Assembly: GCA_016179765.1 (NCBI GenBank)
Contig: JACPCL010000051.1
Coordinates: 1 to 49,360, forward strand
DNA from: Chloroflexota bacterium
GTDB taxonomy: Bacteria > Chloroflexota > Dehalococcoidia > Lucifugimonadales > JACPCL1
DNA length: 49,360 bases
Reading direction: 5' to 3'
Position numbers and translations under genes: made by a program. Of this stretch, positions 24,125-28,913 are shown piece by piece (the stretch's first letter is position 1; every line of letters begins with the position of its first letter). The notes beneath the pieces are model-generated. The model did not search any database. It saw only the letters and a list, made by a program, of their open reading frames with translations, and had not been told where the DNA came from.

Positions 24125-24180
24125 GTACTCCTTGCTACCTGTGTCTTGCACATTCCTAGCTACAAACTGCGGGGGAAGGT

Positions 24181-24942
24181 ATGGCCGAAGTCAAAGTCTA
24201 CTTTCACCAGGGTTGATTCACCTGCGGAAGAACGAAAGAGTTCCTTTCGTCCAACGGCATTTCGTATCTGCCCCGGGACGTGGGCGCTGATCCCATCGCC
24301 CGCGAGGAGCTCCGTGCGCTGAAGTTGCAGGTCGTGCCGGTGACGGTGGTGGACAGCCAAGTGATCATTGGGTTTAACCGCCCGGCGCTGGTCAAGGCCC
24401 TGGGTCTCGGGCAAACAAAGATTGCGGCAGAGCTGCAAGGGCCTCGCTGGATGCTGGGGAAGTTTGAAACGGTGTTAGGCGGGGCACGGCGGGCCACCGC
24501 CCAAATCCCTGACACCCTGATAGACTGGACATCGCCAGAGCGGGGGCGTAACCTGCGGCAGTTTACGTTCCACCTCTTTGACCGCCCGAATTTGATGCTT
24601 AATGGTTACGAGACGCGTATCTTTCGGGCTGAAGACCGCGGCCGCTACATCGGCGAGGCCTTGGAGCGCCGGGACGTTGCGGACATCGTGGCCTTCGGAG
24701 ACGAGGTAGTCCAGCGAATACGCAGCTTCTTCAACACTGCTAGCCAGGAGACCCTGGACACGGTCATTGACACCTACATGGGACCGTTGACCCTTCAGCA
24801 GCTTCTAGACCTGGGCCTGGGGCACTCGGTCCATCACCTGAAGCAGCTTTACGTCTTTATGGAGCAGATAGGCATCCCTCCCGCTAGACCGCTGAGCCAA
24901 AGTGACTTTGACGGCGTGGCGGTGCCTACCGAGCTATTCTAA
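24181..24942 (+). CDS. Predicted selenoprotein: glutaredoxin-DinB fusion with in-frame TGA (Sec)
   Basis: Reading from the ATG at 24181, the frame is open to 24942 except for one TGA at 24214-24216 (codon 12), giving 253 residues if read as selenocysteine. The N-terminal 75 residues are a glutaredoxin-like domain: EVKVYFHQG, then U12-F-T-C15, RTKEFLSSNGI, a cis-Pro segment VVPVTVVD (Pro53), and IIGFNRPAL. The TGA falls exactly on the first Cys of the CxxC redox motif. The rest (about 85-253) is a DinB-like four-helix domain with likely metal ligands His131 (RQFTFH) and the HSVHHLKQL group (His215, His218, His219). A hairpin with a G in the loop lies 23 nt beyond the TGA. The ribosome site GGGGAAGG is very close to the ATG. 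A start at the GTG at 24280 would lose the active site. The alternatives, a nonsense mutation or sequence error, explain neither the hairpin nor the exact position. Confidence 0.83.
24226..24252 (+). promoter_or_regulatory. Candidate bacterial SECIS element
   Basis: The 7-bp perfect stem ACGAAAG (24232-24238) / CTTTCGT (24244-24250) closes a 5-nt loop AGTTC; GG (24226-24227) and CC (24251-24252) can extend the stem across an AAGA bulge. The loop has G as its second base followed by U, and 23 nt separate the TGA from that G-containing loop. Known bacterial SECIS elements need a loop G at one of the first two positions about 16-37 nt after the UGA. Confidence 0.75.
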
Positions 24943-24976: not shown

Positions 24977-26128
24977 ATGGACCAACGCATTGAGAAGATG
25001 ATCACCTACGCCCAGGGGCTTACCTACGAGGACTTACCTCCGGAAGTGGTCGGCCGGGCAAAACATCTTATCTTGGATACTATCGGCTGTGCCCTGGGCG
25101 CTGCCCCCGGCGCACCGGGGCGTATCGTCCGCGCCGCCGCCGCAAAGGTGACCAGCGCCACGCCAGCTACGGTCATGGTCAGCGGCTCCAAGACTTCTCC
25201 GGACATGGCGGCCTTTGCCAATGGGGTGATGGCGCGCTATCTGGACTGGAACGATGGCTATTTTGGGGCCCACGGTGGCGGTCACCCAAGCGATATGCTC
25301 GCTCCTACCCTGGCTGCAGTGGAGACCACACATGGAGGAGGCAAGGAAGCCATCCTTGGGTTTGTGCTGGGGTATGAGGCCCAATGCGGCATGGCCGATG
25401 CCGGGGGTATGGATGCAAAGATCGGCAGCAACCAGACCCTGGATGGCGCCGTGGGTGCGGTGGTCCTCGCCAGCCGGACCCTTGGCTTGGACAAGGAGCA
25501 AATGCGCCACGCCATCAATCTGGCCATGGCAGCCTGCCGGCCCATGGGCCGGCAGAGCAGGGGGCAGCTCTCCCACTGGAAGGAGGCCCATGTCCCAAAC
25601 TCTTCTCGCAACGGCGTCTTCTTTGCCATGATGGCTGCCGAAGGCCTTACCGGGCCTGAGTTCGACTTCGAGGAGCCAACCCAGTGGCTGCCCTTTGGAG
25701 GCGATGGCAGGAGCTTTCGCATCATGGAATCGGGCGTCAAACGCTTTCCTGCTGGCTACTTCTCCCAGAGCGCCATTGAGGCCATGCAGGAGTTGCGACC
25801 CAAGGTCCGCAATCTGGCGGACATTAAGGACAAGATCAAGATACGGATTGGGGAGGAGAATATCAGCGTCTGGCCAGAGCCCCTGAACAATGTGGACATG
25901 GAAATGAACTCCGGCGAGGTACTCAATGCGCGGGTGTCCTACCACCTGGGCCACTTCAAGCGGTTGATGAGTGATGCGGACCAGGAGCGCAAGTTCCGCC
26001 CCATGGCGGAGGAGTATGCCAAGCTACCCAAGGCCCAGGTGGACCGCCTGCTGGACCGCCTTCGCCATCTGGAGCAGGTACGGGACATAGGGGAGGTGCT
26101 GGCCCTCACCGTACCCCCAAAACGATAG
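24977..26128 (+). CDS. MmgE/PrpD family protein (first)
   Basis: A 383-residue member of the MmgE/PrpD family, which includes 2-methylcitrate dehydratase, cis-aconitate decarboxylase and many uncharacterised isomerases or dehydratases. Landmarks are LTYEDLPPEVVGRAKHLILDTIGCALG, an ANGVMARYLDWND block (family D-x-N-D/D-D active site region), and HPSDMLAPTLAAVE. It is shorter than the usual 450 residues and its C-terminal domain is reduced. The start at 24977 follows a perfect AAGGAGG (24962-24968); the longer frame reaches into the upstream gene. Its position 34 bp after the selenoprotein gene suggests one transcript. The substrate is unknown. A terminator follows at 26156-26190. Confidence 0.85.
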   Translation: MDQRIEKMITYAQGLTYEDLPPEVVGRAKHLILDTIGCALGAAPGAPGRIVRAAAAKVTSATPATVMVSGSKTSPDMAAFANGVMARYLDWNDGYFGAHGGGHPSDMLAPTLAAVETTHGGGKEAILGFVLGYEAQCGMADAGGMDAKIGSNQTLDGAVGAVVLASRTLGLDKEQMRHAINLAMAACRPMGRQSRGQLSHWKEAHVPNSSRNGVFFAMMAAEGLTGPEFDFEEPTQWLPFGGDGRSFRIMESGVKRFPAGYFSQSAIEAMQELRPKVRNLADIKDKIKIRIGEENISVWPEPLNNVDMEMNSGEVLNARVSYHLGHFKRLMSDADQERKFRPMAEEYAKLPKAQVDRLLDRLRHLEQVRDIGEVLALTVPPKR

Positions 26129-27518: not shown

Positions 27519-28913
27519 CTACGGTTGCAGCATGGGACGCAGCTCCCGCACGCTCTTCACGGACTCCAGGTTGAGGAGGGCGTTAATCGCCTGGTCGGCC
27601 TTGCGCCCGCCGACGCCCATGGCCAGAAGCTCACGGCTCTTCTTCACCACCTCCTCGGTGGTCATGGGATTCTCCATGGCGCCACGCACCTTCACCACAT
27701 GGTTGCTGTAGGTGCGTCCGCCGGTGGTGGTGAACTCCACCCTGCCCTGGCGCGGGCTTTCTGGCGTGACCAGACTGGGGTCGGCGCGTACCTCTATCTT
27801 GCGGGTGATGGCCAGGATGTCCGGGCGGGTCATGCGTTCCACGTCATGGCCTGCGGCAAAGGAGAGGTCGCCGTCTATGAGGGTAGCGGCCAAACAGTAG
27901 CGCAGGTTAATGTCCGGCATGGTCTGCTCGGCGCCCGTCAGCCGGTTCTCTCCGGTGGAGGAGTACACCACCAGGTGGGCCAGATCCCTGGGGCCAACTC
28001 GGTGCTCCCGCATAATGTTGACCAGGCAATCCACCGGCGCCTGGATGGGTGACCCGACGCAGTATTTCTTGATGTTGGTAAGCATCACCTCGTATCGCGT
28101 GCCCAGCTCAGTTACCAGCTCCTGGCGCTGGGCTTCATCCTTTGCGAAGGAGTCAAAGAAGTTATTGAACCCTTCAAAGACGTCCCACACGCCGGTGAAG
28201 CCCGCCTCCACCATCGTTGCTGCGGTGGCCCCGCTCCGGGCAGGCATGCCGGCGAAGTCAAAGGCCTTCTCAATGTGCTCCAGGTCTGTTTGCCAGGAGG
28301 TGATGCCCGAGGCCTGCTGGGCCGCGTAGGAGAGGAGGTAGCGCACCTGAACAGGGGTGAACTCCACGGCAGCCCCCGCGGCCACGGCAGCCCCAAAGAC
28401 ACCCCCAACGGAATGGCTGCTGAAGTTGCGGCCAGCGCTGCCGCCGAAGGCCTGCCCCGGTCGGCGCAGGGCGCGCATGGCGCGGGTTCCAACGTCGTAC
28501 CCCGCGACGACACCTCTGAGCAGGTCCGCACCGCTCCGGTTGTTCTTCTCTGCCATGGCAAAGGCAGGGGGAACGATGGCGCAGCCAGGGTGGGTACCGG
28601 AGGGAGCATGAGAGTCGTCCGTCTCGTCGGCGTGGGCCATGATGGCGTTGCACAGGGATGCGGTGACCGCGTTGGTCATCACGGGAGAGGCCACCACCAT
28701 CGCCTCGGCCCTACCGCCCTGAAGCTCGGCGTACTTGACCGCCAGCTCCCCCGGCGGAAGGGTCACGCCGGAGACCATGGCGGCCATGGTGTCCAGGACA
28801 TGGTGCTTTCCCTTCAGGGCAACCTCTTCCGGGAGCTCAGCCGACCGCGCCTTTACAATGTAGTCGCTCAACTGGCCAATGATGCTGCCATCCGATGAAT
28901 GCCGCTGGGTCAT
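27519..28913 (-). CDS. MmgE/PrpD family protein (second)
   Basis: A full-length (464-residue) MmgE/PrpD protein: LPEEVALKGKHHVLDTMAAMVSG near the start, NAIMAHADETDDSH (active-site loop), HPGCAIVPPAFAMAE, SHSVGGVFGAAVAAGAA and YAAQQASGITSWQTDLEH. The family contains methylcitrate dehydratase and cis-aconitate decarboxylase as well as many proteins of unknown substrate. It is only distantly similar to the copy at 24977-26128 and so is not a recent duplicate. The gene stands alone on the minus strand, facing away from the SDR gene. Confidence 0.9.
   Translation of the reverse strand: MTQRHSSDGSIIGQLSDYIVKARSAELPEEVALKGKHHVLDTMAAMVSGVTLPPGELAVKYAELQGGRAEAMVVASPVMTNAVTASLCNAIMAHADETDDSHAPSGTHPGCAIVPPAFAMAEKNNRSGADLLRGVVAGYDVGTRAMRALRRPGQAFGGSAGRNFSSHSVGGVFGAAVAAGAAVEFTPVQVRYLLSYAAQQASGITSWQTDLEHIEKAFDFAGMPARSGATAATMVEAGFTGVWDVFEGFNNFFDSFAKDEAQRQELVTELGTRYEVMLTNIKKYCVGSPIQAPVDCLVNIMREHRVGPRDLAHLVVYSSTGENRLTGAEQTMPDINLRYCLAATLIDGDLSFAAGHDVERMTRPDILAITRKIEVRADPSLVTPESPRQGRVEFTTTGGRTYSNHVVKVRGAMENPMTTEEVVKKSRELLAMGVGGRKADQAINALLNLESVKSVRELRPMLQP

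Follow-up and report, generated by a model that had tools for sequence, protein, structure and literature searches.

A predicted selenoprotein fusion of glutaredoxin and DinB/YfiT domains in Chloroflexota

The window (the whole stretch of DNA that was analysed, 49,360 nucleotides) holds a gene that, to judge from its sequence and that of its relatives, is very probably a selenoprotein gene in which a glutaredoxin domain is fused to a DinB domain; this confidence covers the fusion and not the mechanism of the enzyme. That the gene belongs to a selenoprotein family with selenocysteine (Sec) at residue 12 appears almost certain. A preliminary description of this DNA had proposed that an in-frame TGA encodes Sec, and the proposal is supported by the conservation of the TGA with homologous sequence on both sides, by the Cys found at the aligned site in stand-alone glutaredoxins, by the presence in this genome of selA, selB and a tRNA-Sec with anticodon TCA, and by a hairpin under constraint downstream of the codon.

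The gene and its in-frame UGA

The frame that opens with the ATG at 24181 has a sole in-frame TGA, at residue 12, and is open from there to its TAA (Table 1). When the TGA is read as Sec the product is a protein of 253 residues with the motif G-U-F-T-C-G-R-T-K, in which U-F-T-C forms a UxxC centre. The preliminary description was right about the continuity of the frame on direct reading, and also in placing the TGA on the first redox Cys of a CxxC motif, as the aligned site is Cys in stand-alone glutaredoxins. It had further seen homology on both flanks of the TGA, which agrees with a Pfam Glutaredoxin match that spans the codon and with the conservation of the flanks in relatives. Finally, it had warned that a conventional call from GTG 24280 would drop the active site, and the mechanical ORF in this frame does start only there and is 220 aa long, so that a conventional gene caller would lose the UxxC centre. 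Since standard calling would start at that GTG, relatives of the fusion may be misannotated elsewhere.

Two ABC permease genes lie upstream of the fusion gene, and an MmgE/PrpD gene (start taken as ATG 24977) follows 34 nt 3' of it and may be co-transcribed with it. The window has two MmgE/PrpD-family genes near each other, at 24977-26125 (+) and 27519-28910 (-).

Table 1. Coordinates of the fusion gene and of its predicted features in the window
Feature	Positions	Strand	Basis
Predicted selenoprotein gene (253-residue Sec-glutaredoxin/DinB fusion, stop TAA)	24181..24942	+	Frame, Pfam, full-length homologs with the same architecture
Purine-rich stretch, candidate ribosome-binding site	24171..24179	+	Precedes the ATG; stretch read directly, function inferred
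Glutaredoxin (NrdH/Uxx-star-like) domain, residues 4-62	24190..24366	+	Pfam PF00462 1.6e-8; Foldseek 7c10, 3zit
In-frame TGA, predicted codon for Sec (U12 of U-F-T-C)	24214..24216	+	TGA conservation in relatives
Cys15 codon, putative resolving Cys of UxxC	24223..24225	+	Column invariant in alignments A1 and A2; role inferred from glutaredoxins
Putative bSECIS hairpin (24232-24238 paired with 24244-24250; AGUUC loop at 24239-24243)	24232..24250	+	
DinB/YfiT (S-transferase-like) domain, residues 102-234	24484..24882	+	Pfam DinB_2, DinB; Foldseek YfiT 1rxq, DR0053 6iz2
His131, putative metal ligand	24571..24573	+	Invariant in A1 and A2; role inferred from BstA
His215-x3-His219, putative metal ligands	24823..24837	+	Invariant in A1 and A2; spacing that of BstA H160-x3-H164 (available text of PMC5815605)

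The TGA is conserved wherever it could be read. A pattern scan of GTDB with one genome per species (84,980 species) found 98 stretches, of which 40 encode relatives, and since the scan used two patterns, one of them with Cys at the Sec site, it was presumably without bias to TGA. The site is covered in 39 of these loci, the remaining one (L099) starting at residue 25 where the site is absent. The codon was read directly in 30 loci of the order and in four genes from more distant members of the class and phylum, and is TGA in 34 of 34; the GTDB loci have it in 39 of 39, and these two sets of genes overlap in part. At the level of the order, at least 54 of 250 genomes had a match at E <=1e-20; the 64 match rows include 60 full-length genes, all 60 with one TGA, one of them also with a TAG, and the codon itself was read in 30. 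The other four rows are a gene starting at model position 23, a match to the glutaredoxin part only, and the G057 gene, which a frameshift divides into two halves that give a row each. Among 400 genomes of the phylum at least 58 matched at E <=1e-12, with six full-length rows that each have one TGA, two of the six being from the source genome. As the phylum and order searches scored the best <=6 and <=10 first-look candidates per genome, respectively, they may have passed over some members. Among 60 panel genomes (the source genome, G000, and 59 relatives), nine have full-length homologs of the fusion with a TGA inside each, and the copy in G057 is split by a frameshift.

Two gene copies stand out as damaged: L072, from Bacterium HR23, is frameshifted and G601:C309 has an additional TAG, and they are decayed genes or assembly errors.

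The source genome carries a second fusion gene (L031, G000:C14:48429-49160), which also has the TGA and whose protein is 34% identical to the window protein. It belongs to another subfamily, B, and shares its contig with the tRNA-Sec gene, at a distance of about 32 kb.

No Cys version of the whole glutaredoxin-DinB fusion was present in the GTDB loci or among the best candidates per genome in the order and phylum searches. In the phylum's stand-alone glutaredoxins the aligned codon is TGA in some and TGT or TGC in others, and the Sec site is thus the position of a redox Cys. The preliminary description had suggested a comparison with Cys orthologues at position 12; these exist as stand-alone glutaredoxins but not as full fusions, so that the comparison is one with the stand-alone forms. 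An in-frame UGA that is aligned with the redox Cys of homologs is what characterizes bacterial selenoproteins, and the window gene has it.

Other Sec-containing glutaredoxins were seen along the way. Eight stand-alone glutaredoxins of the same order (L020, L022, L023, L025, L027, L028, L033 and L034) have TGA at the aligned site in a G-U-G-P-C motif, with Cys forms in other genomes, and make up, on their sequences, a second predicted Sec glutaredoxin group. Glutaredoxin-like proteins of other Chloroflexota (L113, L114, L117 and L128) also have a TGA, with an extra residue before the site (x-x-G-U-x-F-C).

The mechanical ORF from GTG 24280 would fit with the TGA being a true stop, which leaves an N-terminal remnant and a separately started DinB protein from a decayed or split gene. 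We consider this very improbable, as the same TGA is found in widely diverged genes whose flanks are still coding, glutaredoxin residues are conserved on both sides of it and the genome has the machinery for Sec. That the TGA is an assembly or sequencing error for TGT or TGC is a practically negligible explanation, since the same codon recurs throughout the two partly overlapping sets above, in separate assemblies from many projects.

Selenocysteine machinery and the recoding hairpin

The source genome has selA at 537 bits (cut-off 268), selB at 308 bits, or 340 when a neighbouring stretch is included (cut-off 242), and tRNA-Sec at 65 bits (cut-off 47). The tRNA-Sec model matched all 60 panel genomes and all 14 controls, with 53 of the 60 over the cut-off, and the ubiquitous matches probably come from other tRNAs that match weakly; the tRNA-Sec of the source genome is settled by its anticodon TCA, found with ARAGORN. 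The genome thus has the combination of selA, selB and tRNA-Sec that goes with bacterial selenoproteins. For selD the best match reaches 74 bits against a cut-off of 125, which is the sub-threshold level seen in other genomes, and the preliminary description, which had pointed to the sel genes of the same genome as a check, is to this extent borne out for three of the four genes it named. Of the 60 panel genomes, 46 have a selD match above the cut-off, among them two of the three other members of the source genus, and every such row has an internal TGA, among the matches listed. The source assembly consists of 53 contigs with a completeness of about 95%, and an assembly gap is the likely reason for the low selD score. 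A gene that adjoins selD in a genome of the same genus was not found in the source genome in a search without a positive control, which is compatible with such a gap.

As for the other panel genomes, selA is over the cut-off in 50 of the 60. Among the nine genomes with a full fusion, selA is present in eight (not in G037) and selD in eight (not in G000). The fusion is absent from all eight panel genomes in which neither selA nor selD is over the cut-off; at least two of these (G043 and G058) hold fragments of selA or selD. This co-occurrence is a weak test, because the Sec trait is nearly universal in the panel and eight negative genomes are too few.

The Cys of the stand-alone relatives at the aligned site could also be explained if the UGA were read as Cys, or else as Trp, through a suppressor or a genome-wide change of code. 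Such a reading is highly unlikely, since the paralog L031 in the same genome appears to terminate in a TGA used as stop, 59 of the 60 full-length genes are without any in-frame stop besides the one TGA, and the genome encodes selA, selB and a tRNA-Sec with the TCA anticodon.

The hairpin that follows the UGA in the window gene, ACGAAAG-AGTTC-CTTTCGT, has a 7 bp stem, lies 22 nt after the UGA and has an MFE of -11.4. It fits the bSECIS model as given in the available text of PMC13188914 (loop of 3-9 nt, stem of 4-16 bp, a G in the first two loop positions, 16-37 nt after the UGA and MFE <= -7.5), and 43 of 45 family genes do so, the exceptions being L079 and L100. However, 2262 of 3626 control stretches (62%), taken from eight ORFs of the window, fit the consensus too, 215 of them with a stem of at least 7, which makes the fit weak evidence by itself. 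The SECIS-like hairpin of the preliminary description is in place, but its resemblance to a SECIS says little when taken alone. Rfam SECIS_1 had no match in the source genome, and as it was silent in all 14 control genomes as well the result is uninformative. When 42 nt counted from the UGA were compared in folding energy with synonymous versions, the fractions ranged from 0.06 to 0.54 and were below 5% in none of 14 genes.

The choice of codons is more telling. Downstream of the UxxC motif, the 14 genes from subfamilies A and B use the codons ACG in 14, AAA in 13, GAG in 12, TTT in 11, CTT in 14 and TCG in 14, and CTT and TCG (14/14) and AAA (13/14) are retained although the GC3 of the remainder of the gene is at least 0.70 in 12 of the 14. 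Few synonymous versions match or beat the pair count of the hairpin (fractions from 0 to 0.047 in all 14 genes, the window gene having the highest), and in the same test the fractions for the longest stem anywhere are 0.001 to 0.032; L072 was left out, and the hairpin was defined on the same 14 genes, which makes the test lean in its favour. In L108-L111 the arms CGAAAG/CTTTCG are kept while the loop and some intervening amino acids differ. We infer that the hairpin is kept under constraint, by way of unusual synonymous codons.

Subfamily C has another stem at the place of the hairpin, with 88% of cells paired, a level reached by none of 500 shuffles. Changes on both sides occur at two of its pairs, which is not above the shuffles (equalled by 288 of 500), but its covariation score of 0.138 was reached in two of 500 shuffles and exceeds all six slid versions. 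This gives moderate support for a structure, given that kinship can yield such scores without one. The stem is nearly invariant in subfamilies A and B, where covariation is consequently uninformative, and RNAalifold on all subfamilies jointly gave no common structure.

Domain structure and a possible thiol chemistry

The protein was described at the outset as a glutaredoxin selenoprotein, and the glutaredoxin domain with Sec is supported, but the second half, a DinB/YfiT domain at residues ~102-234, was missed. Pfam places Glutaredoxin (PF00462) at residues 4-62 with E 1.6e-8 (35.1 bits against a cut-off of 22.9) and DinB_2 at residues 102-223 with 3.4e-7 (31.2 bits against 24.8); both assignments are thus over their cut-offs, and among the family proteins Glutaredoxin is found in 31 of 31 and DinB_2 in 30 of 31. 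The AlphaFold model of the window protein, built from its alignment with 30 of the 40 GTDB loci (near-copies and truncated or frameshifted sequences were omitted), has a mean pLDDT of 90 and a pTM of 0.86. In Foldseek searches of the PDB the DinB half of the model resembles YfiT (1rxq), DR0053 (6iz2) and other DinB structures, and the glutaredoxin half cGrx1 (7c10) and BC3987 (3zit), so that the predicted fold agrees with Pfam on the DinB/S-transferase-like half.

The NCBIfam glutaredoxin families score below their cut-offs, including Uxx-star NF041212 with 38.8 against 66 bits, which leaves the protein outside Uxx-star; the same model matches 31 of 31 family members at E <=0.01.

H131, H215 and H219 are invariant in the 31 sequences and provide the three conserved His of the DinB superfamily. 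This site probably holds a metal. In B. subtilis, all eight of eight DinB members have metal-dependent bacillithiol transferase activity and only three His are common to all of them, in BstA H67, H160 and H164 (available text of PMC5815605), while a mycothiol transferase of M. tuberculosis with the DinB fold has two His and one Asp, and three His are thus not universal (available text of PMC10950700).

A mechanism can be outlined on this basis. SelB with Sec-tRNA would decode UGA 24214-24216 as Sec, guided by the stem-loop 22 nt downstream, and the product would carry a glutaredoxin domain with the UxxC centre and, fused to it, an S-transferase-like (DinB/YfiT) domain of four helices that has the three-His site. 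At the metal site a low-molecular-weight thiol would be activated and then added to, or removed from, an organic substrate that is electrophilic or oxidised. The mixed disulfide formed in this way would be attacked by Sec12 of the adjoining domain and the selenenylsulfide resolved by Cys15, after which a reductase or a thiol of the cell would reset the enzyme. Overall this would be a thiol transferase with a fast built-in reductase. We propose such a joint action of a Sec-glutaredoxin and a probable metal-dependent thiol transferase tentatively, with opinion almost evenly balanced but leaning slightly to the negative.

BshC, a marker of bacillithiol, was found in 0 of 60 panel genomes with matches in three controls. 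For MshC, a marker of mycothiol, 0 of 60 genomes exceed the cut-off and 57 have weaker matches. From these single markers neither bacillithiol nor mycothiol is expected in the hosts, and the protein does not fall with bacillithiol or mycothiol transferases in the sense of having a host that makes either thiol, judged by one marker each. The matches to named transferases in NCBIfam are weak as well, with mycothiol (MST_Rv0443) in 13 and bacillithiol (YfiT) in two of the 31 proteins at E <=0.01.

The lack of both markers and these weak matches would be understandable if the protein were a selenoprotein whose DinB domain transfers no thiol and only binds a metal or a substrate, in effect an ordinary Sec redoxin that carries a domain for targeting. 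This is a serious possibility, though we hold it to be somewhat doubtful: the His triad is invariant, the B. subtilis members that share only those three His are all metal-dependent transferases (PMC5815605, text as available), and the search for thiol markers covered bacillithiol and mycothiol, with glutathione, CoA, cysteine and ergothioneine as other candidate thiols.

A third and improbable alternative is that, in bacteria that make neither bacillithiol nor mycothiol, the metal site of the DinB domain acts together with Sec12, the substrate being held as a covalent selenide and freed by Cys15 or by a simple cellular thiol. The substrates could then be oxidised or halogenated organics, for instance, and if true the DinB fold would have gained a new use in catalysis, and marine and subsurface Chloroflexota would harbour a lineage of obligate selenoenzymes.

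Relatives, gene neighbours and known systems

In a tree of 31 proteins, subfamilies C (18 rows) and B (three rows) are separated with full support. Subfamily A (ten rows, the window protein among them) does not come out as a single clade, and the long branches make the deep order unsure. By their titles, 20 of the 40 GTDB loci are from Chloroflexi or Chloroflexota and 18 from Dehalococcoidia or SAR202, with one 'Bacterium HR23' and one Mesorhizobium. The fusion gene on the Mesorhizobium-labelled MAG contig (L085) nests among the Dehalococcoidia in the tree, and its label is probably a binning error.

Neighbouring genes were compared for 41 loci, where one neighbour cluster, an ORF antisense to the fusion gene itself, was ignored. 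No neighbour is common to more than three of the ten GTDB loci of the window's subfamily. A GMC oxidoreductase is often near subfamily C (18 of 41 loci), and a luciferase-like monooxygenase is nearby in 14 of 41 loci, mostly of subfamily C and in two cases of subfamily B. These two neighbours suggest a role with oxidised organic compounds for subfamily C. SAR202 and other Chloroflexota are thought to degrade stubborn dissolved organic matter.

The family would be a new domain architecture for the bacterial selenoproteome within known selenoprotein chemistry, and one that links selenium to the DinB thiol-transferase fold. The full fusion was seen without a Cys form, and is therefore a clean case for asking why selenium is needed. 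A glutaredoxin-DinB entry is absent from the 119 prokaryotic selenoprotein families of a 2026 catalogue (PMC13188914), and the word 'DinB' does not occur in the available main text of PMC13188914, PMC12013277, PMC2398784, PMC9312934, PMC1794560 or PMC1088965. Nor did the selenoprotein and DinB/thiol-transferase literature, in the titles and abstract openings of the matches listed and outside supplements and most subscription journals, contain a glutaredoxin-DinB selenofusion. Ocean surveys report Sec glutaredoxins (available texts of PMC2398784 and PMC1088965), and some of these fragments may be N-terminal parts of the Sec glutaredoxin-DinB family.

Known systems share one or the other half of the protein. 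YfiT/BstA and other DinB bacillithiol and mycothiol transferases have the DinB fold and the H...HxxxH triad in common with the window protein (PMC5815605, in its available text), but are without a glutaredoxin domain or Sec among the members examined, and their sequence similarity to the fusion is weak. The closest counterpart of the other half is Grx1 of Clostridium oremlandii (cGrx1), a native selenoprotein (PMC7642778, available text) whose structure, PDB 7c10, was solved as the Cys version. It is the best PDB sequence match of profile A1 (9.3e-22) and also a close fold match, with the glutaredoxin fold and a U/C-x-x-C motif as in the window protein; unlike the fusion, it is a stand-alone chain of 84 residues without a DinB domain. 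The Uxx-star families (NF041212, NF041211, NF047338 and NF041114) and the HUGP/GUXX-star fusion NF045501 likewise have a small Sec glutaredoxin-like domain, but NF045501 differs from the window fusion in having another partner and another order. The selenoprotein fusions from Global Ocean Sampling, of which those named in the available text of PMC2398784 contain Prx, Prx-like and UGSC proteins, are similar to the window protein in that a redox domain is fused to another domain.
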